Virus record (IMG/VR): IMGVR_UViG_3300046001_005505
Coordinates: 1-30,553 of that record
DNA length: 30,553 bases
Direction: 5' to 3' (one strand)
Source of the DNA: a virus
The notes beneath the pieces are model-generated. The model did not search any database and was not told the DNA's origin. It was given only the letters and a program-made list of their open reading frames with translations. The translations under genes and the position numbers were made by a program. Below, piece after piece: positions 17,152 through 29,029 of the stretch; positions within the stretch are counted from its first letter, which is position 1; each line of letters begins with the position of its first letter.

Positions 17152-17549
17152 CACGTTCTCCCGATTAGAAAGAATGGATTATAGATCGCCCGGTGCTTGC
17201 ATGCGAGAAGGCCTGTCAGTTTCCCACCCTCGCAGCAGTATTGAATCAGTCCGGGATTCTCACCGAAAGACTCACGCAGGAGCGATGAGAACACGCCAAG
17301 GCGGCGAAAGGGTTCCTTCACATATGCATACACGATGCAGGGTGCCGGCTCAGTGAGACCACAGAACCACCCGACAAGCGATTCCTCGCCGTCCATATCG
17401 ACCGATGCCATGGTGATGCAGGGGAGCAGCTTCGGGATGATGCGAACGAGGTCAGATGCAGCAAGCCCCGTCAGGTGTGCAGAATGCAGCCATGAATTAT
17501 GGATGAAGTTGATGTGCTCAGATGTAGCTTTCCTGAAATCGATGTTCAT
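17151..17549 (-). CDS. GNAT-type acetyltransferase-like protein, 132 aa
   Basis: The order of elements fits the GNAT fold: an N-terminal IDFRKATSEHINFIHNSWLH, a central beta strand VGWFCGLTEP, strand IVYAYVKEPF, then the acetyl-CoA loop/helix RRLGVFSSLLRESFG, matching the Q/R-x-x-G-x-G/A pattern with G-V in place of G-x-G. It is short but complete for the core. Such genes occur near terminase and portal in several podoviruses, where the substrate is unknown. Its ATG overlaps the large-terminase stop (ATGA). Acyl transfer is inferred from fold only, and the loop is slightly degenerate. Confidence 0.7.
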   Translation of the reverse strand: MNIDFRKATSEHINFIHNSWLHSAHLTGLAASDLVRIIPKLLPCITMASVDMDGEESLVGWFCGLTEPAPCIVYAYVKEPFRRLGVFSSLLRESFGENPGLIQYCCEGGKLTGLLACKHRAIYNPFFLIGRT

Positions 17550-18943
17550 CGAAATAACTCACCCCATGGGTCTGTTTGGGTTTCCTGTTGTGCTCTTGTT
17601 GCCTGTTCGACTTGCTTGATCATATCGCGTTCTTCACGGGCAATCCATGCAGCGGAGCCGATAGCAAGGGGCTCGGGACGTTCAACAGATAAATAGTGTC
17701 TAACATAACGCATGGAATATAAACAACTGTCCGTTTTATCATTTGGAAGTGATGGATCTTCCTTGCGCCTATCATCATAGGTCAGAGTCTGAAACTGGTG
17801 TTCAAGTTCCTCGCATCCTGGGAGCGTGAACACTCGGCCATCGATGAAGTCACCGTTCAGTGTGGCAATGAAGGACATCTTGTCGGTCTTCTCTGCAGCG
17901 CGAACCGGGAGACCGTAGCGCTGGCGAAACTCTTCTGTGATGCTTTTGCCGAGGCCACCCGTGTCGCACACGATAGCCTCAAGGTCATACTGTGCATGCA
18001 CGCCCTGCACGATCTCTGCAATGCGAGAAGGGATGAGCCCTGAAATGCCCCAACAGCGCATGATGTAGGCGTTCGGGCAGGTGGCAGAATAGGCCACGAG
18101 GGCAAACGCAGTCTGATCGTGCCATCCATAGTCGAGACCGAGGACGTAGTTCCAGTCGTGACCAGCGGGGAGTTCGGTGGCTTTGTTCTTTAGAGGATTC
18201 CATCTGTAAACCAGGGCATCGAGGTCAAGACACCACTCGCCGAGGTATTGCCTGCGGTAGGTGGGATTGTCTTCTGTCCAACCCTTGCGTTTTTTCAGCT
18301 TCTCAAGCCAATCACGGGCGTGTGGGAGGTGCGGGTTATCGAAGAGACTCCACTTATGCCGTGAGAAAGAACTATGGGGGCTGGCAATCGCGTTGTAGAA
18401 ATAGCCGTTCGGGATCGGCCCAGGCGTGCCTAAGAGCCACAGGTCGCCGCTCAAGTCGAGTAGTGCAGGCGAGAGTACATCGTCGATAAGGTATTCAACG
18501 TGTGAGCCGAAGGACTGTGCCTCATCGATGATGACTCTTTTCCACTTATTGCCGAGAAGCCTATCGATGAGGCCCGGTGAGTCGGCACCGATGAGCCAGA
18601 TGCGAGAATTGTTCGCAGTCTCGACGCAAAGCTTGGAGTTCTTGAGCTCAATTTTGTTGCCGAGAAGTGCTTTCATCTCATGAAACTTCGGCCACATAAT
18701 CTTTTCAGAACTCTGCCGGGTCAAGCCCAGGTAAAGCACATCGCAGTTGTCATGCGAGAAAGCGGCCTCTAGGCATCCTGCAGTTGCAACGTGGGACTTC
18801 CCTGCGCGTCGGGTGCAGCATGCTGCCTTCCACTCTGATGTGTCATCGAGAAACGCCCGCTGTGCATCGAAGAGCTGTGCCGTGATGCGATACTTCGGAT
18901 CACGCAGTTTGAGGATGCGGGCAGCGAGGTCTTGGATGGTCAT
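17546..18943 (-). CDS. terL: Terminase large subunit, 465 aa
   Basis: Packaging ATPase and nuclease. Numbered from the preferred start, the Walker A-type loop CTRRAGKS is at 43-50 and Walker B VIIDEA at 137-142. The coupling motif region LWLLGTPGP follows. The RNase H-like nuclease domain shows GLDYGWHDQTAF (about 269-280), CDTGG (326-330) and NDKTDS (401-406), giving the acidic metal-binding residues. The ATG at 18943 overlaps the methylase stop as ATGA; an ATG four codons upstream is the alternative. Length is normal for the family. It should bind the portal and the small subunit. A ParB-like gene and a methylase separate it from the likely small subunit. Confidence 0.93.
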   Translation of the reverse strand: MTIQDLAARILKLRDPKYRITAQLFDAQRAFLDDTSEWKAACCTRRAGKSHVATAGCLEAAFSHDNCDVLYLGLTRQSSEKIMWPKFHEMKALLGNKIELKNSKLCVETANNSRIWLIGADSPGLIDRLLGNKWKRVIIDEAQSFGSHVEYLIDDVLSPALLDLSGDLWLLGTPGPIPNGYFYNAIASPHSSFSRHKWSLFDNPHLPHARDWLEKLKKRKGWTEDNPTYRRQYLGEWCLDLDALVYRWNPLKNKATELPAGHDWNYVLGLDYGWHDQTAFALVAYSATCPNAYIMRCWGISGLIPSRIAEIVQGVHAQYDLEAIVCDTGGLGKSITEEFRQRYGLPVRAAEKTDKMSFIATLNGDFIDGRVFTLPGCEELEHQFQTLTYDDRRKEDPSLPNDKTDSCLYSMRYVRHYLSVERPEPLAIGSAAWIAREERDMIKQVEQATRAQQETQTDPWGELFR

Positions 18944-19962
18944 TTTCCATTCCAATACAGCTTCTCTTGCTTGACTTTGTTTGACTCACCCGACTGCGTG
19001 AGCAGGCATCGCTTATCCACGGTGTACACTAGCTTGAAACGAGGATCTGCAACGTCATATTCGGATATGAACACGGGAAACTCTCTTGAGGACGCCCAAT
19101 CGAAGAAATCTTTATGTGAGAATGAGTTGCCGTATTCTGCAGTTCCTTTGTACGGGATATCACAATAGACCACAGAATTAGGCTCAATGATCACATCTCG
19201 ATAGTCGCCAGAGGTGATGTGCAACTGCTGCAACTGCTGCAACCGCTGCAACTGCTCCAACTGCTGCAACCGCTGCAACTGCTGCAACCGCTCCAACTGC
19301 TGCAACCGCTGCAACTGCTGCAACCGCTCCAACTGCTCCAACTGCTGCAACTGCTGCAACCGCTCCAACTCTTGAAACGGTCGATGCGCCGCAAGGCTCT
19401 GTCTCTGCTTATCAGAGAGGTATTGATGCAATACCTTCGGGAGTTTCGTCTTGCGGTAGTGCTCAATCAATTGTCGCACATAGTATCGACGTTGCTTGAT
19501 TGTCTTGGCAATAGCGGGCCACTTGCTGAACCTGAGCACTTCGGATGCCAGTGCGTCGAACTCATCGAACACAACAGCCATGTGCATGCTGCGCTTGCAT
19601 GGCTCAATCTCCTCTGAGAAGAGATAGTCATCTCCGTTGTTCCCAAAGCTCCAACATGAGCACACATAACCATCGGTGTACTTCTTGGCATGGAACTCTT
19701 CGCGAGAAACCCACGGTGGCTTGAACACGTCATAGGAGAACTCGCCCGCTATGGCACGCTTGAGCGTTTCAGCTATGTGTGCCTTCAGTTCATTGTAGTG
19801 AAAATGAGAATACTTCTTAGCCTTGTTCAATGCCATGTAGTGCGCCATTGCACCACCACCGCCGAACAGATCATAGAAGTGTTCAGCCTTGGGAAAGTTC
19901 ATGGCGAGGCTGGCAGCGATGTTAGACTTGCTGCCCATATAGGGAATCCCATATTCGCTCAT
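18940..19962 (-). CDS. DNA adenine-N6 methyltransferase (D12/Dam class) with internal LQ repeat, 340 aa
   Basis: Class-alpha adenine methylase layout: YMGSK at 8-12, the SAM-binding motif DLFGGGGA at 31-38, a helical and target-recognition region, then catalytic motif IV as DIPY at 268-271 (Ile in place of the usual Pro) followed by KGT. Between them, residues about 198-247 are sixteen (Q/E)(Q/R)L triplets coded by a 9-bp repeat. Target sequence cannot be read from the protein; GATC is a plausible guess given the GATC-rich locus at 22585-22838. The start overlaps the ParB-like stop (ATGA) and the end overlaps the terminase start. It may protect phage DNA from host nucleases or mark it for replication or packaging. 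Confidence 0.9.
   Translation of the reverse strand: MSEYGIPYMGSKSNIAASLAMNFPKAEHFYDLFGGGGAMAHYMALNKAKKYSHFHYNELKAHIAETLKRAIAGEFSYDVFKPPWVSREEFHAKKYTDGYVCSCWSFGNNGDDYLFSEEIEPCKRSMHMAVVFDEFDALASEVLRFSKWPAIAKTIKQRRYYVRQLIEHYRKTKLPKVLHQYLSDKQRQSLAAHRPFQELERLQQLQQLEQLERLQQLQRLQQLERLQQLQRLQQLEQLQRLQQLQQLHITSGDYRDVIIEPNSVVYCDIPYKGTAEYGNSFSHKDFFDWASSREFPVFISEYDVADPRFKLVYTVDKRCLLTQSGESNKVKQEKLYWNGK
19222..19371 (-). repeat. 9-bp tandem repeat inside the methylase gene
   Basis: About sixteen units of CAAC(T/C)GCT(G/C) on the plus strand, in frame with the methylase. Only two positions vary. On the coding strand this makes Q or E at the first residue and Q or R at the second, with Leu always third. 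Multiples of 9 bp would be gained or lost by slippage without breaking the frame. Confidence 0.95.
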
Positions 19963-20534
19963 GACGACTTCACCTTGAATCCCTTGCCGTTCAGCTCCCG
20001 GAAAAGGCTCTCTTGCTGCTCTTCGTTTTGCAGAGTCACAGTCAAGATGAACTTGCGTTCCTTCTCAGAGTCCTCATCCTCATCAGGGAGATTCGGTGTA
20101 AACTCGATACCGGCAAGGATGGCCTCGCACTCCTGCTCTGAGAAACCAGTAAGCAGGGCATCAAAGTTCTCATCCTTCAGCTCTGCAATCTCGATTCGGA
20201 GAAGGTCATCGTCCCAACCTGCGTTCAATCCTATGCGGTTATCCGCCAAAATATATGCCCGCTTCTGAGTCTCTGTGAGGTGCTCAACGCGAATGCATGG
20301 CACGTTGGCTAGCTTTAGCTTCTGCGCTGCAAGCACACGTCCATGGCCCGCAATGATGCCATTGTCTGCGTCGGCAATGACGGGGCTTATGAATCCGAAC
20401 TCCCGAATGGACGCGGCGATCTGAGACACCTGCTCAGGACTGTGAGTGCGTGCGTTGCGGGCATACGGAATCAGTGCCTCGATAGGCACCAACTCATACC
20501 GTCCCACGCCCGATAATGCTTTGGAGTTCTTCAT
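19959..20534 (-). CDS. ParB-like (ParB/Srx fold) protein, 191 aa
   Basis: The N-terminal 100 residues are a ParB N-terminal-type domain: VPIEALIPYARNARTHS, then QIAASIREFGFISPVIAD, the catalytic/CTP-site-like GHGR at 63-66, and LADNRIGLNAGWDDDLL. The C-terminal part has an acidic linker and a small alpha/beta end (FILTVTLQNEEQQESLFREL) common in phage ParB-like proteins. In many phages this domain is fused to or next to a DNA methylase; here it directly precedes one with an ATGA overlap. The ATG follows a GAGGA ribosome site and lies inside the 3' end of the upstream gene (41-base overlap). It may act as a DNA-binding partner of the methylase; plasmid-type partition is not implied. Confidence 0.82.
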   Translation of the reverse strand: MKNSKALSGVGRYELVPIEALIPYARNARTHSPEQVSQIAASIREFGFISPVIADADNGIIAGHGRVLAAQKLKLANVPCIRVEHLTETQKRAYILADNRIGLNAGWDDDLLRIEIAELKDENFDALLTGFSEQECEAILAGIEFTPNLPDEDEDSEKERKFILTVTLQNEEQQESLFRELNGKGFKVKSS

Positions 20535-21135
20535 CTGTCATCCTCGTAAGTCTCTCAATTGTGGCTTCGGGAGTCACGTCAATGATGGGTGACTCGGTGT
20601 GTGTTTCCTTCTGCGATATCTCGACCTGCTTAACTTCAGCAAAGAGTGCCGGGAATATCCGTTCAAGATATGCAAGGGCAGCACGCCAATCTCTCTCGGC
20701 ACCTTGTCGGATGCGAGAGATCCACCACAGCAGGTTTTGTGCCTGGGCCTTGTTTACCTGGGCCGCAAGGTTCTCATCGTCCTGCATCCACTTGCGAAGG
20801 GCACTGCGCTGCACGTTTGCCAGCAAGCAGGCGTAGTCGATTGGGAGACCTGCCCGGATAGCCCTGCAGATCTCTTCGATGACTCCCTCGACGTCGCTTT
20901 GCTCAACCGCTTTGACGCCTCGGGCGACGGGTCCACGACACGGGGCACGGTCGGGACGTTTCATGTGTGCGACCTTGACTGCCTCGTCGAATAGGCCATC
21001 GGACCGACGCCACATGTAAACGGTTCGTTCTGTGATTCCGACCGCCACGACGGCTTTGTGCATGGAGATACCCGTGCCGAGTTCCTGCAGTATCTGTTGC
21101 TTGAATGCTTGTATCTGTTCTGGTGTGTACGCCAT
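20494..21135 (-). CDS. Putative terminase small subunit with two HTH motifs, 213 aa
   Basis: Two helix-turn-helix candidates are visible: SMHKAVVAVGITERTVYMWR (about 24-43) and PIDYACLLANVQRSALRKWM further on. The segment after the second, ENLAAQVNKAQAQNLLWW then AERDWRAALAYLERIFPALF, is the usual pattern of small terminase subunits that recognise packaging sites. The gene heads the structural operon, as expected. A regulator is the alternative reading, since a palindrome abuts its start. The ATG has only a weak ribosome site (AGG one base away), which is unusual for this genome. Two genes lie between it and the large subunit. Confidence 0.65.
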   Translation of the reverse strand: MAYTPEQIQAFKQQILQELGTGISMHKAVVAVGITERTVYMWRRSDGLFDEAVKVAHMKRPDRAPCRGPVARGVKAVEQSDVEGVIEEICRAIRAGLPIDYACLLANVQRSALRKWMQDDENLAAQVNKAQAQNLLWWISRIRQGAERDWRAALAYLERIFPALFAEVKQVEISQKETHTESPIIDVTPEATIERLTRMTDEELQSIIGRGTV

Positions 21136-22022: not shown

Positions 22023-22538
22023 TCAGTCCTCCTTTGTTGGCGGTGCCAAGTGAACGATGGCCAGCTTTGGATATCTGCCATTCTCGGCCCACAGTGGGTT
22101 GCCGCTTGGCGCTTTGACGATGATCTTGTCTCGCGTAAAGAGTTCTTCCAGAACACCATCCAAGTCCGCAGTGCTGATTCGCAATGACCTAGCCATGGAT
22201 GCCCTATCCCTATATCCCCCCGCCCTCCTGAGGGAATCTATGACGCGCCGAGCGGTATCGGAGATGGTGCGATCGCGAGTCGGTGTGCGCAGGACGATGC
22301 GTTTGAGGGCGCTTACCCTTTGATCCTTCTCCCACCTTGGACGCTTTGCCTCAACGATAACGTAGCCCCATGGCCCAACGGCGGCATCGAGGTCAACCTG
22401 CGCAGCAGCAAACAGATCCGCGCTGGTATGGGGCAGCAGGTCGAATTCTGTATCTGCGATGGTGCCCCAATGACGGTAAGCCCCATCGACACCTCGCAGG
22501 ATCTCTCCATCGGCCGTTATTTTGAATTCTCTTTTCAC
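22023..22538 (-). CDS. Winged-helix-type DNA-binding protein, 171 aa, GTG start
   Basis: Residues about 97-164 (RVIDSLRRAGGYRDRASMAR then DKIIVKAPSGNPLW) closely match the C-terminal domain of the 435-aa ATPase across the non-coding region. This is a small winged-helix-like unit: three helices then a beta hairpin. Residues 1-90 form a separate alpha/beta part (LLPHTSADLFAAAQVDLDAA, GYVIVEAKRPRWEK) of unknown fold. The GTG at 22538 is chosen for its GGAGG ribosome site; an upstream ATG frame is mostly non-conserved-looking. The gene borders the repeat-rich locus, so it may bind there (inference). Confidence 0.7.
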   Translation of the reverse strand: MKREFKITADGEILRGVDGAYRHWGTIADTEFDLLPHTSADLFAAAQVDLDAAVGPWGYVIVEAKRPRWEKDQRVSALKRIVLRTPTRDRTISDTARRVIDSLRRAGGYRDRASMARSLRISTADLDGVLEELFTRDKIIVKAPSGNPLWAENGRYPKLAIVHLAPPTKED

Positions 22539-22621
22539 TCCATACCTCCGGTTGCTATGATTTAGAGCAACGGACTGGTAGCAGGATCTGGGAGGGCTGA
22601 AAAGTGGAAAAAACGGGATTT

Positions 22622-22656
22622 GGAAAATGTTCACACGGGTTCACATGAGATCACAT
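22622..22656. repeat. 35-bp inverted repeat, left arm (outer)
   Basis: Exact reverse complement of 22831-22865 over all 35 bases, compared base by base. It begins GGAAAATGTTCACACGGG and ends GATCACAT. Flanks show no target-site duplication, so a small transposon with terminal repeats is not favoured. Confidence 0.97.
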
Positions 22657-22701
22657 CGGTATGTGATTCGTAAGTATGTAATATATATATATAATATATA
22701 T

Positions 22702-22719
22702 AAGATCACAAAGATCACA
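22702..22719. repeat. 18-bp inverted repeat, left arm (inner)
   Basis: AAGATCACAAAGATCACA, two GATCACA units nine bases apart. It is the exact reverse complement of 22768-22785 and starts at the end of the AT-rich tract. Confidence 0.97.
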
Positions 22720-22767
22720 TAGTCCTATAGGAGGATCGCCTTTTTTCTCTCCCCCCACCAGGGAGAG

Positions 22768-22785
22768 TGTGATCTTTGTGATCTT
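22768..22785. repeat. 18-bp inverted repeat, right arm (inner)
   Basis: TGTGATCTTTGTGATCTT, two TGTGATC units nine bases apart, mirroring the left inner arm. A short extra inverted repeat, CTCTCCC (22747-22753) with GGGAGAG (22761-22767), abuts it. Confidence 0.97.
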
Positions 22786-22830
22786 TGGTTCTTTCTCGTT
22801 TCATTCTCCCGGCTTGGCGATCACAATGGC

Positions 22831-22865
22831 ATGTGATCTCATGTGAACCCGTGTGAACATTTTCC
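22831..22865. repeat. 35-bp inverted repeat, right arm (outer)
   Basis: Partner of the arm at 22622-22656. It starts six bases before the T-rich end of the terminator that closes the 435-aa gene's transcript, so it lies outside both neighbouring coding regions. Confidence 0.97.
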
Positions 22866-22871
22866 GGGGCA

Positions 22872-22902
22872 AAAACAGAAACCCGTGGACTTGCCACGGG
22901 TT
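22872..22902 (-). terminator. Intrinsic terminator after the ATPase gene
   Basis: AACCCGTGG (22880-22888) pairs perfectly with CCACGGGTT (22894-22902) around a five-base loop. On the minus strand it is followed by TCTGTTTTTG. It lies 35 bases after the stop at 22937 and isolates the repeat locus from upstream transcription. Confidence 0.85.
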
Positions 22903-22936: not shown

Positions 22937-24244
22937 TCAAATGTCCACCGAGAGGTCCAGATGGACGGTTGAGTGATTCGGGTAGCTACCGTTCTTTGGC
23001 TCAGCAGGAGTACCGCTTGGGCCCTTCACTACGACTTGGCCTCGAACCGACAGGTCTGCAAGAATCTCGTCCATGGCTCTCCTGCCGAGTCTAAGACCAC
23101 GAGCCAGCTCTTGCCTGCTCCGCTTCCCGCCGGCGCGTTTGAGAGCCTCTATGACGCGCATGCGCTCACGCTCTTGAGCGGAGTCTGTGATCCAGTCTTT
23201 GGCAATCTTGGCGAGGGTCTCACCCTGCAGGGAAGCGATGTCACAACCCCAAGCCATGTCATCAACACTGATCTCAGTTCGGCCACAGCCGAGGGCATGG
23301 AGTGAGGCAATCCGCATGGCATTCTGTGGGATTCGGTCTCGGATCGATCCCTCGGCTGAATCAGGGTCTTGCTGAAAAGCGATTTCCCACGTGCGGTCAT
23401 GCAGATGGTAGTCGTGAGAGGCTTCCTCGCTCATGGACAGTCGAATCTTTGCATCGGTCTGGGCGATGTGAACCGTGGCCTTACCTTCCTGGAAAGCTTT
23501 CAGAGCATCTCGAAATGCAGGGATGCCACCCGTTGCACCAGTCTCGGTGTAACCAGCATAGAAAATCGATCTAAGTTTCCCGATCGGTTCGGGGTCTAGT
23601 GGATTGCGACGTCTGAACTGTCTGTCGGATGGAATGCCGCTACTCCAAAGAAGAAGACGGCTCAAAAAGCCACCGCCGGAATTGCTGCCGGTGATCACTT
23701 CTTTGAAACGCCCAGGCGTGCCAAAACCGATGAACGTCAGCTTGGGGTTCAACACTTCCGGGACGGTTTCACGTTTCAATGCCTGACCGGGCAGCACGTC
23801 GAGGCCGTTCGATATCGTCTTAATATCGTCGAGCAATCCACTGACATATGTGTTGTCTGTGTTGGTTAACTTGTACAGTAAATCTTGTACCTCATCGGCA
23901 ATCCATATCCGAGAGTTCCAGCAGTATAACTCACCACGCAGACCCAGCGTGGATCCTGGGTTGGTGAGGATGAGACGCGAATCGACCTGTCGCAGTGTAT
24001 CTTGCACGCAGCGAAGGTAATGGTCTTTGCCAGCGGCAGCAGGCATCAGACAGAGCTGTGTAAGACTCAAAGCACGCCCTTGAGGGGTGAGATAGGTGCC
24101 TTGTGCGCAGGTCGATATGATTGCCAATGCGGTAGCTATTCCAAGTTCTTCGTATTCTCTGACGCTGTTATCGATGGACCAATCTATAAGAGATCGCACC
24201 AATCCAGAGCTTCTTTCTCTCAGGCTTCGGGCATCTCCCTGCAT
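22937..24244 (-). CDS. DUF3987-like replication ATPase with C-terminal winged helix, 435 aa
   Basis: The middle resembles DUF3987/primase-helicase-type ATPases. A Walker A-like loop with a degenerate P-loop, PAAAGKDH, is at 68-75; the Walker B-like strand IWIADE is at 114-119. NPKLTFIGFGTPGRFKEVI then GGFLSRLLLW (about 166-200) is the pattern typical of that family. Residues about 362-429 are a winged-helix-like unit shared with the 171-aa protein. The ATG at 24244 has a GGAG ribosome site and overlaps the HTH gene's end; a longer frame from 24475 only shadows that gene. Lys is kept but the Ser/Thr after it is Asp, so ATP use is uncertain. It probably acts in phage DNA replication. Confidence 0.7.
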   Translation of the reverse strand: MQGDARSLRERSSGLVRSLIDWSIDNSVREYEELGIATALAIISTCAQGTYLTPQGRALSLTQLCLMPAAAGKDHYLRCVQDTLRQVDSRLILTNPGSTLGLRGELYCWNSRIWIADEVQDLLYKLTNTDNTYVSGLLDDIKTISNGLDVLPGQALKRETVPEVLNPKLTFIGFGTPGRFKEVITGSNSGGGFLSRLLLWSSGIPSDRQFRRRNPLDPEPIGKLRSIFYAGYTETGATGGIPAFRDALKAFQEGKATVHIAQTDAKIRLSMSEEASHDYHLHDRTWEIAFQQDPDSAEGSIRDRIPQNAMRIASLHALGCGRTEISVDDMAWGCDIASLQGETLAKIAKDWITDSAQERERMRVIEALKRAGGKRSRQELARGLRLGRRAMDEILADLSVRGQVVVKGPSGTPAEPKNGSYPNHSTVHLDLSVDI

Positions 24245-24447
24245 GGCATTTTCTCCATCGCTTCCATGATGATGGGATTCTCCGTGATACAGAACAGTTT
24301 CTTTGCGTTTACTATGCCCGTAGGATTGAATGGTTTCAGAATCCCTTTCTGAATCCAGAGATAAATAGTCCATCGGGAAACACCAAACAACGCCATAACG
24401 TCTCTGGTATTTAGATACGCCGGTATTGGCGTCGGTTTCTTTGCCAT
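24220..24447 (-). CDS. HTH transcriptional regulator / excisionase-like protein, 75 aa
   Basis: AYLNTRDVMALFGVSRWTIY followed by LWIQKGILKPFNP is a typical MerR/AlpA/excisionase-type helix-turn-helix with the wing. The remaining residues (TENPIIMEAMEKM) are a short helix. The ATG at 24447 has a CAGGAG ribosome site; the frame can be extended by ten codons but without support. It heads the minus-strand replication block and follows a promoter with an overlapping palindrome, so autoregulation is plausible (inference). An alternative is a replication-initiation helper. Confidence 0.75.
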   Translation of the reverse strand: MAKKPTPIPAYLNTRDVMALFGVSRWTIYLWIQKGILKPFNPTGIVNAKKLFCITENPIIMEAMEKMPCREMPEA

Positions 24448-24471
24448 AACTTTCTCCTGGGTGATTCTTGC

Positions 24472-24504
24472 ACACAATTTATAGTTGTGTTAGATAAGTG
24501 TCAA
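24472..24504 (-). promoter_or_regulatory. Promoter with overlapping palindromic operator
   Basis: On the minus strand TTGACA (24504-24499) lies 15 bases before TATAAA (24483-24478). The spacer is two bases short of ideal. ACACAA (24472-24477) and TTGTGT (24485-24490) form an inverted repeat centred on the -10 box. The start codon of the HTH gene is about 30 bases downstream. The layout suggests repression by occlusion of the -10 region. Confidence 0.6.
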
Positions 24505-27755: not shown

Positions 27756-28097
27756 ATGAATATTGACTCTATTTTGTCTCAAATCGTCTCAGGAACTATC
27801 ACATTGCGCGATGCTCTTGAACAAATGAGTGGACCCGCTCCCGAAAGTAAAGTTCAGATTGTGATTGCACCTCGTGGCTGGGTGTTCGTTGGATATTGTA
27901 GCAAAGATGATTCAGATCTGATTATCGAACGATCAAATGTAATTCGTATCTGGGGCACGACTAAAGGAATCGGAGAACTCAAAGACGGGCCAACCGACAA
28001 AACCGTTTTAGATCCGTGCGGCACAACTAGAATCCCTCTAAGCGCAGTGCTTGGCAGAATTGATTGCGAGGAATCGAAATGGAACACGAGGATCTGA
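27756..28097 (+). CDS. Hypothetical protein, 113 aa, duplicate copy A
   Basis: A 113-residue protein nearly identical to the one at 28437. The first part is helical (SQIVSGTITLRDALEQM), followed by a beta-rich domain (KVQIVIAPRGWVFVGYC, SDLIIERSNVIRIWGTT) with a conserved DPCGTT turn. No known motif. AAGGAA precedes the ATG. The stop lies inside the next gene's first codons. Differs from copy B at three residues near the C-terminus (I/V, S/T, G/A). Confidence 0.7.
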   Translation: MNIDSILSQIVSGTITLRDALEQMSGPAPESKVQIVIAPRGWVFVGYCSKDDSDLIIERSNVIRIWGTTKGIGELKDGPTDKTVLDPCGTTRIPLSAVLGRIDCEESKWNTRI

Positions 28098-28309
28098 GAT
28101 CACTTCTCGATACATTTAATAGCCATTTTAGCTACAGCTACGGCTCCGGCGACGGCTACGGCAACGGCTCCGGCTACGGCTACGGCGACGGCGACGGCTA
28201 CGGCTACGGCAACGGCTACGGCTCCGGCTACGGCTACGGCTGCGGCTACGGCTACGGCGACGGCTACGGCTACGGCTGCGGCTACGGCTCCGGCTACGGC
28301 TGCGGGTGA
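28079..28309 (+). CDS. Gly-Tyr/Asn/Asp/Ser/Cys repeat protein, 76 aa, copy A
   Basis: Start ATG at 28079 has a GAGGA ribosome site and overlaps the 113-aa gene's end. The leader MEHEDLRSLLDTFN is shared with copy B. After it, alternate residues are Gly, with Tyr most often, and Asp, Asn, Ser and Cys between. TGC and TCC codons occur only in this copy. It ends at a TGA that corresponds to a Trp codon in copy B. No family recognised; likely unstructured or assembly-prone. Confidence 0.65.
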   Translation: MEHEDLRSLLDTFNSHFSYSYGSGDGYGNGSGYGYGDGDGYGYGNGYGSGYGYGCGYGYGDGYGYGCGYGSGYGCG

Positions 28310-28436: not shown

Positions 28437-28778
28437 ATGAATATTGACTCTATTTTGTCTCAAATCGTCTCAGGAACTATCACATTGCGCGATGCTCTTG
28501 AACAAATGAGCGGACCCGCTCCCGAAAGCAAAGTTCAGATTGTGATTGCACCTCGTGGCTGGGTGTTCGTTGGATATTGTAGCAAAGATGATTCAGATCT
28601 GATTATCGAACGATCAAATGTAATTCGTATCTGGGGCACGACTAAAGGAATCGGAGAACTCAAAGACGGGCCAACTGATAAAACCGTTTTAGATCCATGT
28701 GGCACAACTAGAGTCCCATTAACTGCCGTTCTTGCTCGAATTGATTGCGAGGAATCTAAATGGAACACGAGGATCTGA
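28437..28778 (+). CDS. Hypothetical protein, 113 aa, duplicate copy B
   Basis: Second copy of the 113-aa gene. The first 240 bases differ from copy A at two positions, both silent. The last 96 bases differ at about fifteen positions, only three of which change the protein. The same ribosome site and an overlap with the next gene are kept, so both copies look translatable. Function unknown. Confidence 0.7.
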   Translation: MNIDSILSQIVSGTITLRDALEQMSGPAPESKVQIVIAPRGWVFVGYCSKDDSDLIIERSNVIRIWGTTKGIGELKDGPTDKTVLDPCGTTRVPLTAVLARIDCEESKWNTRI

Positions 28779-29029
28779 GATCACTTCTCGATACATTTAA
28801 TGGCCATTATGGCTACGGCGACGGCAACGGCTACGGCAACGGCTACGGCAACGGCTACGGCAACGGCTACGGCGACGGCGACGGCTACGGCTACGGCTAC
28901 GGCGACGGCAATGGCAACGGCAACGGCTACGGCGACGGCAATGGCAACGGCAACGGCGACGGCGACGGCTACGGCTACGGCAACGGCTACGGCAACGGCT
29001 ACGGCTACGGCTACGGGTGGGAGGTGTAA
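28760..29029 (+). CDS. Gly-Tyr/Asn/Asp repeat protein, 89 aa, copy B
   Basis: Same leader as copy A, then Gly alternating with Tyr, Asn and Asp only, closing with GWEV. Coded by a hexanucleotide repeat GGC-NAC with N mostly T, A or G. Because the repeat is in phase, all reading frames are open across it; the frame with a leader, a ribosome site and a matching duplicate is the real one. No domain known. Confidence 0.65.
   Translation: MEHEDLRSLLDTFNGHYGYGDGNGYGNGYGNGYGNGYGDGDGYGYGYGDGNGNGNGYGDGNGNGNGDGDGYGYGNGYGNGYGYGYGWEV

Follow-up and report, generated by a model that had tools for sequence, protein, structure and literature searches.

A mirrored array of G[AT]TCACA iterons behind a predicted DUF3987 helicase gene as a candidate replication origin of the P4/SaPI kind in an uncultured phage

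What is the function of a noncoding region of ~240 bases, filled with nested inverted repeats, that lies behind the gene of a DUF3987 protein (a predicted helicase) in an uncultured phage? The region belongs to IMG/VR record IMGVR_UViG_3300046001_005505, a tailed-phage fragment of 30.5 kb whose 30,553 nucleotides are referred to here as the window. A sequence-only reading of this DNA had described an origin-like layout, and the analysis presented here makes it likely that the region is an iteron origin of the kind known from phage P4 and the SaPIs, or the cis-required part of such an origin, serving a self-loading DUF3987 initiator helicase.

The outer frame of the region is a perfect 35-bp inverted repeat, the arms of which (22622 to 22656 on the plus strand and 22831 to 22865 on the minus strand) are separated by ~174 bp; the likeness can be followed inward to 22667 on the left and to 22820 on the right, giving 46 bp at 89% identity. 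Nested within it is a perfect 18-bp inverted repeat (22702 to 22719 on the plus strand and 22768 to 22785 on the minus strand), each arm of which holds two GATCACA units 9 bp apart, at 22704 and 22713 on the left and, on the minus strand, at 22768 and 22777 on the right. Both pairs of arms, the two 9-bp pairs of units, and seven copies of GATCACA/TGTGATC had been pointed out in the sequence-only reading, and all of them were recovered; the unit as given there was too narrow, however, since four further exact units read GTTCACA. The unit is thus G[A/T]TCACA, with 11 exact copies from 22629 to 22858 (230 bp) arranged in sets that are mirrored on opposite strands. The left outer set (22629 to 22655, plus strand) consists of GTTCACA at 22629, GTTCACA at 22639, and GATCACA at 22649, and beside it a degenerate unit of opposite orientation, TGTGATT at 22662, forms a twelfth. 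The right outer set (22819 to 22858, minus strand) consists of TGTGATC at 22832 and TGTGAAC at 22842 and 22852, and it includes one opposite-facing GATCACA at 22819. The exact 10-bp spacing of the outer units (22629/22639/22649 and 22832/22842/22852) had been missed before; the left outer arm reads GTTCACAcggGTTCACAtgaGATCACAtcg, which is three units at exact 10-bp steps, and the right arm mirrors it. Several regularly spaced short direct repeats, as seen in iteron origins, are therefore present (11 units, with 9- or 10-bp spacing within sets), and this spacing would place neighbouring units on one face of the helix. The arms are noncoding, as had been claimed, if the gene to the left starts at the GTG at 22536 to 22538, but a longer open reading frame (22023 to 22634) would extend into the left arm. 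A CRP-type site was considered and rejected, as the order TGTGA-N6-TCACA is absent and only the everted order is present, twice. No RNA families or tRNAs were found.

The repeats are real and lie far beyond chance. Among perfect inverted repeats with arms up to 400 bp apart, no other in the window reaches the 35 bp of this one, and the corresponding values in 20 simulated windows were 11 to 13 bp. The G[AT]TCACA units reached a maximum of 3 per 260 bp across 200 simulated windows, compared with 11 here. A single strand of the region, folded as DNA, gives -83 kcal/mol (z of -13), and two near-identical relative contigs are unchanged across the whole repeat region. The outer arms are identical over 35 bp with the spacers between the units included, and because iteron function alone needs no identical spacers, the identity suggests a recent inverted duplication, gene conversion, or else a function of the foldback as such. 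Perfect inverted arms of 35 bp that are ~174 bp apart could also form the ends of a MITE or another small transposon, yet these arms consist of the 10-bp-spaced units that make up the interior as well, neither the window nor the phage collection contains a second copy, and no target-site duplication is visible, in agreement with the sequence-only reading on the last point; a mobile element of this type is extremely unlikely.

It had also been proposed that every iteron contains GATC and that this links the region to an adenine methylase encoded by the phage. GATC occurs in 7 of the 11 exact units and is absent from the other 4 (GTTCACA), so it does not define the unit, and the first part of the proposal fails. 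The nine GATC sites counted earlier are all there, but they are less striking than they had seemed, as the densest 260-bp stretch of simulated windows averages 6.1 GATC and reaches 9. GATC is depleted across the window as a whole (121 sites versus 170 expected from dinucleotides), and, taken with the simulation, this makes the local GATC count mostly a by-product of the unit. The adenine methylase is of the D12 class (gene at 18940 to 19962; Pfam, 4.8e-10), as had been claimed. Its best PDB matches are DNA adenine methylases, although these are weak (E of 0.02, covering only 34 residues), and since this D12-class enzyme resembles a Dam of known structure only weakly, the methylation link is not supported; methylation control of the candidate origin is possible. 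The same gene carries an in-frame LQQLQ/LERLQ repeat block with 9-bp units at ~19220 to 19360, which is 18 and 36 bp shorter in the two near-identical relatives, so that the length of the protein varies among them.

The proposed unwinding element is a tract of 87.5% A+T at 22664 to 22703, between the iteron sets. It ranks with the window's 40-mers of highest A+T content, which start at 22658 to 22685, in the interval that separates the left outer set from the left inner one, and in a few cases near 27.7 and 28.4 kb. The earlier reading had also noted an AT tract in the repeat region, and the arrangement of mirrored sets around such a tract, another mark of iteron origins, is present. At the centre of the nested repeats is a small hairpin with a C-rich loop (CTCTCCC/GGGAGAG, 22747 to 22767). 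A rho-independent terminator (22880 to 22902, minus strand), with a 9-bp stem followed by TCTGTTTTTG, belongs to the gene for the DUF3987 protein. The GC skew shows no clear switch at the repeat region.

This gene (22937 to 24475, minus strand) encodes a 512-amino-acid (aa) protein of the DUF3987 ATPase/helicase type (Pfam PF13148, E of 9.5e-9), the proposed initiator; its start is uncertain, with candidates at GTG 24475 and at an inner ATG at codon 35 or 78. The protein matches phrog_3022, "DNA primase" (E of 1.7e-30), over only the C-terminal, helicase-like half of that profile, and no primase domain was recognized in it, nor was a primase found among the genes scanned in the window. Both matches agree with the replication-type ATPase reported next to the repeats. 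The iteron region starts 71 bp past the stop codon, beyond the terminator, and so occupies the position directly downstream of an initiator helicase gene at which iteron origins are found. The gene directly downstream (22023 to 22538, minus strand) has a GTG start with a GGAGGT Shine-Dalgarno sequence 5 nt upstream and encodes a 171-aa protein that has no Pfam family above the cutoff. Its C-terminal domain is, by sequence, paralogous to that of the 512-aa protein (~aa 429 to 506), with 44% identity over 78 aa (BLASTP E of 4e-18), and the ATPase is absent. The domain is probably DNA binding in both flanking proteins. Both had previously been called winged-helix proteins, of which the common C-terminal domain holds, with its winged-helix-like character judged only from the sequence pattern. 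AlphaFold single-sequence models of the two proteins were of low confidence (mean pLDDT of 44 and 33), a PDB sequence search returned nothing of use, a mixed-alignment search for distant relatives gave no usable pattern, and the bacterial genomes searched contained no close relative of the 512-aa protein. On the far side of the 512-aa gene and divergent from it is a RecT gene; to the left, past the 171-aa gene, come the genes for terminase and virion proteins.

The gene arrangement also bears on readings other than an origin. Given the terminator at 22880 to 22902, transcription of the 171-aa gene probably has to start from a separate promoter within the region, its product carries a C-terminal domain that looks DNA binding, and arrays of operator half-sites are common, all of which would fit an operator or promoter region through which the 171-aa protein or another regulator controls the 171-aa gene without any role in replication. 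A search of the minus strand of the array revealed no sigma-70-like promoter, however, and 11 units spread over 230 bp and mirrored about an AT tract are more than an ordinary operator contains; elsewhere, as described below, arrays of this unit are mostly beside replication enzymes. A purely regulatory region is improbable, and operator and origin roles are not mutually exclusive. ParR-type centromeres typically have their iterons in two clusters, and a ParB_N protein is encoded at 19959 to 20534, but its gene adjoins the methylase gene, away from the array, and no ParA or ParM gene was recognized among the genes scanned, which leaves a partition centromere or other plasmid-like maintenance site hardly credible.

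Comparison with known replicons gives the origin reading good support. In the satellite phage P4, the alpha gene, the rho-independent terminator t-alpha, and crr follow one another in the same order as the 512-aa gene, its terminator, and the iterons. The annotated "ori type 1 repeats" of P4 occur on both strands and are mostly TGTTCAC[A/C], that is, TGTTCACA or TGTTCACC, with the variants TATTCACC and TCTTCACC, and the window has TGTTCACA at 22628. Neighbouring type 1 repeats are 9 bp apart in crr and 10 to 11 bp apart in ori. Both the gene order around crr and the iteron core support the layout as origin-like. The two systems differ in that P4 crr consists of two 120-bp direct repeats, whereas the window has nested inverted repeats, and in that P4 alpha is of the D5/SF3 type with a Toprim primase, whereas the candidate initiator of the window is a DUF3987 protein. 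When profiles were compared, the C-terminal domain of the 512-aa protein matched neither the C terminus of P4 alpha nor those of the proteins at two other loci (L056 and L031); high scores for loci L013 and L032 in this comparison were rejected as circular, both being in the query alignment. Without detectable homology to the P4 alpha C terminus, the GTTCAC core common to P4 and the window may be convergent, having arisen more than once.

A second parallel is provided by the staphylococcal islands (SaPIs) and other PICIs. The origin of a PICI follows pri-rep and always has an AT-rich region with an iteron set on each side, and autonomous replication has been demonstrated in E. coli (PMC6092414). 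The C-terminal domain of SaPI Rep recognizes iterons directly downstream of its gene, and Rep reportedly binds in the form of two hexamers; in the SCCmec helicase Cch2, it is likewise the C-terminal domain that binds the putative downstream origin (PMC7581432). DUF3987 and VirE domains have been described as predicted helicases of mobile elements (PMC5862659). The region follows the plan of the SaPIs and PICIs (PMC6092414, PMC7581432), an AT-rich stretch between two iteron sets immediately behind a helicase gene, and this further supports an origin. The Rep proteins of these elements are of the DUF927 or D5 type, whereas the candidate initiator matched only DUF3987 and none of the known Rep families (DUF927, D5/SF3), and the region is for this reason classed as a variant of the SaPI/PICI/P4-type iteron origin. 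Two of its features are unusual, namely, the perfect 35-bp mirror arms and the 171-aa protein, which carries the C-terminal domain of the helicase without the helicase, encoded adjacent to the candidate origin. For SaPI and PICI origins, no published case was found in which the arms are perfect mirror images or the DNA-binding domain of the initiator also exists as a separate copy.

Arrays of the same unit were then sought elsewhere by motif. Two scans with a pattern of three 10-bp-spaced units identified two independent mirrored arrays, both beside primase-helicase genes (L021, DUF3987; L056, VapE), while 1 of the 69 other loci was beside such a gene (L013, DUF3987; Fisher p of 0.001, with small numbers). 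Arrays of three such units on one strand in bacterial genomes were mostly unrelated to the helicase families tested. Locus L056, in a Desulfofustis glycolicus element, has two mirrored GTTCACA sets with 9- to 12-bp spacing adjoining the primase-helicase gene, although the enzyme is of the VapE type (PF05272), unlike the DUF3987 protein of the window. Long one-strand tandem arrays of GTTCACA-type units at 10-bp spacing were seen at L012 (7678 to 7794) and at L061, L088, and L098 (Dehalococcoidia MAG CATQGW01), with several in one bacterial genome; these four loci had no match to DUF3987, VapE, or P4 alpha proteins.

A scan for mirrored arrays yielded 58 viral loci, 37 of them with at least 6 units, and a replication enzyme family was encoded within 1 kb in 30 of these 37. 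The families were DUF7146/Toprim_3 (22 loci, many closely alike), DUF927-Cch (3 loci), and, with one locus each, D5/DUF5906, DUF3987, VapE, DnaB, and a DnaG-like primase. As the loci were chosen by motif, they show what arrays have as neighbours and not how frequently replication genes have arrays. Mirrored loci with few units were often near unrelated genes (terminase, tail, and others), as expected of chance matches. The mirrored same-unit arrays beside replication enzymes in unrelated viral contigs lend the origin-like layout additional support, and they bear on a packaging (pac or cos) site for the small terminase subunit as well. Some pac sites hold repeated boxes, and the window has terminase genes at 17546 to 18955 and 20494 to 21135, ~1.5 kb away, but other genes intervene, the array adjoins the DUF3987 gene, and arrays of this unit track replication enzymes, with terminase neighbours only at L127 and L131, which have just 4 units each; a packaging site is very unlikely.

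The best parallel to the window among these loci is L133 (IMGVR_UViG_3300020045_011673), where mirrored GTTCACA units lie around a 95% A+T tract directly behind a DUF3987 gene (E of 2.6e-50) with a C-terminal HTH (E of 2e-4). Unlike in the window, the 742-aa protein includes a Prim-Pol domain and the arms are not long perfect inverted repeats. At the DUF927-Cch locus L128, GTTCACA units are likewise beside the gene. The units face inward in the window, as do the paired ones of P4 crr, whereas those of L021, L056, and L145 face outward. A home-made profile had assigned L119 and L145 to DUF3987, which was rejected because Pfam places them in the D5/DUF5906 type. Mirrored TGTGAACCT arrays that overlap the open reading frame of a large DUF7146/Toprim_3 primase at its 3' end were observed in many related viral contigs, namely, L114 (5036 to 5127), L138, L148, and ~19 others (L112 to L167). 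Ten GATCACA/TGTGATC units in both orientations are found at L136 (8286 to 8355), adjoining a gene for a 435-aa protein without a Pfam match.

In a gene-first survey, phages with proteins resembling the 512-aa protein were fetched without a prior search for repeats, giving seven distinct phages. In three of these seven nearest phages, Rhizobium phage RHph_TM3_3_14B, Sinorhizobium phage AP-16-3, and Moraxella phage Mcat11, the strongest repeat cluster was formed by 7-mers on both strands within 250 bp of the gene end, so that iterons are immediately 3' of the relative of the 512-aa gene. Their iterons (TTCCAAA, AATTCCA, and GCAGACA) differ from those of the window, and the origins are not annotated. 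Sixteen further DUF3987 phages, fetched afterwards and mostly by a second query, had no strong cluster at the gene end, which indicates that the iteron layout belongs to only part of the family; the proposition that DUF3987 genes always carry iterons was rejected on this evidence.

For the candidate origin, a mechanism can be proposed in which the 512-aa DUF3987 protein uses its C-terminal domain to bind the G[AT]TCACA units. On the mirrored sets, which are on opposite strands, two oligomers would assemble face to face with the A+T-rich tract between them. This tract would then melt, and the DUF3987 protein would load itself and unwind outward, with two helicases moving in opposite directions, by analogy with SaPI Rep. 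The 171-aa paralogue probably binds the same units and may limit initiation or repress its own promoter. An extension of this scheme is a self-regulating origin in which the duplicated DNA-binding domain of the initiator (the 171-aa protein) competes for the iterons and sets the rate of initiation, while the presence of GATC in the inner units and its absence from outer ones makes binding sensitive to the methylase; this version is speculative and rather unlikely.

DUF3987 is a widespread domain of unknown function that is predicted to be a helicase, and the window offers it a concrete candidate origin as well as a testable role, that of an initiator that loads itself as P4 alpha and SaPI Rep do. 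The surveys suggest that the mirrored G[AT]TCACA layout recurs beside DUF3987, D5/DUF5906, DUF927-Cch, VapE, and DUF7146/Toprim genes, and the layout could serve to find origins in viral contigs from nothing but their sequence.

The window contains a further set of repeats. A gene encoding a 113-aa protein is present in two near-identical copies (27756 to 28097 and 28437 to 28778) within a segment of ~620 bp that is 92% identical between them. Each copy is followed by an array of 6-bp repeats (28138 to 28294 and 28815 to 28993), composed of CTACGG in one array and of mixed CAACGG/CTACGG in the other.
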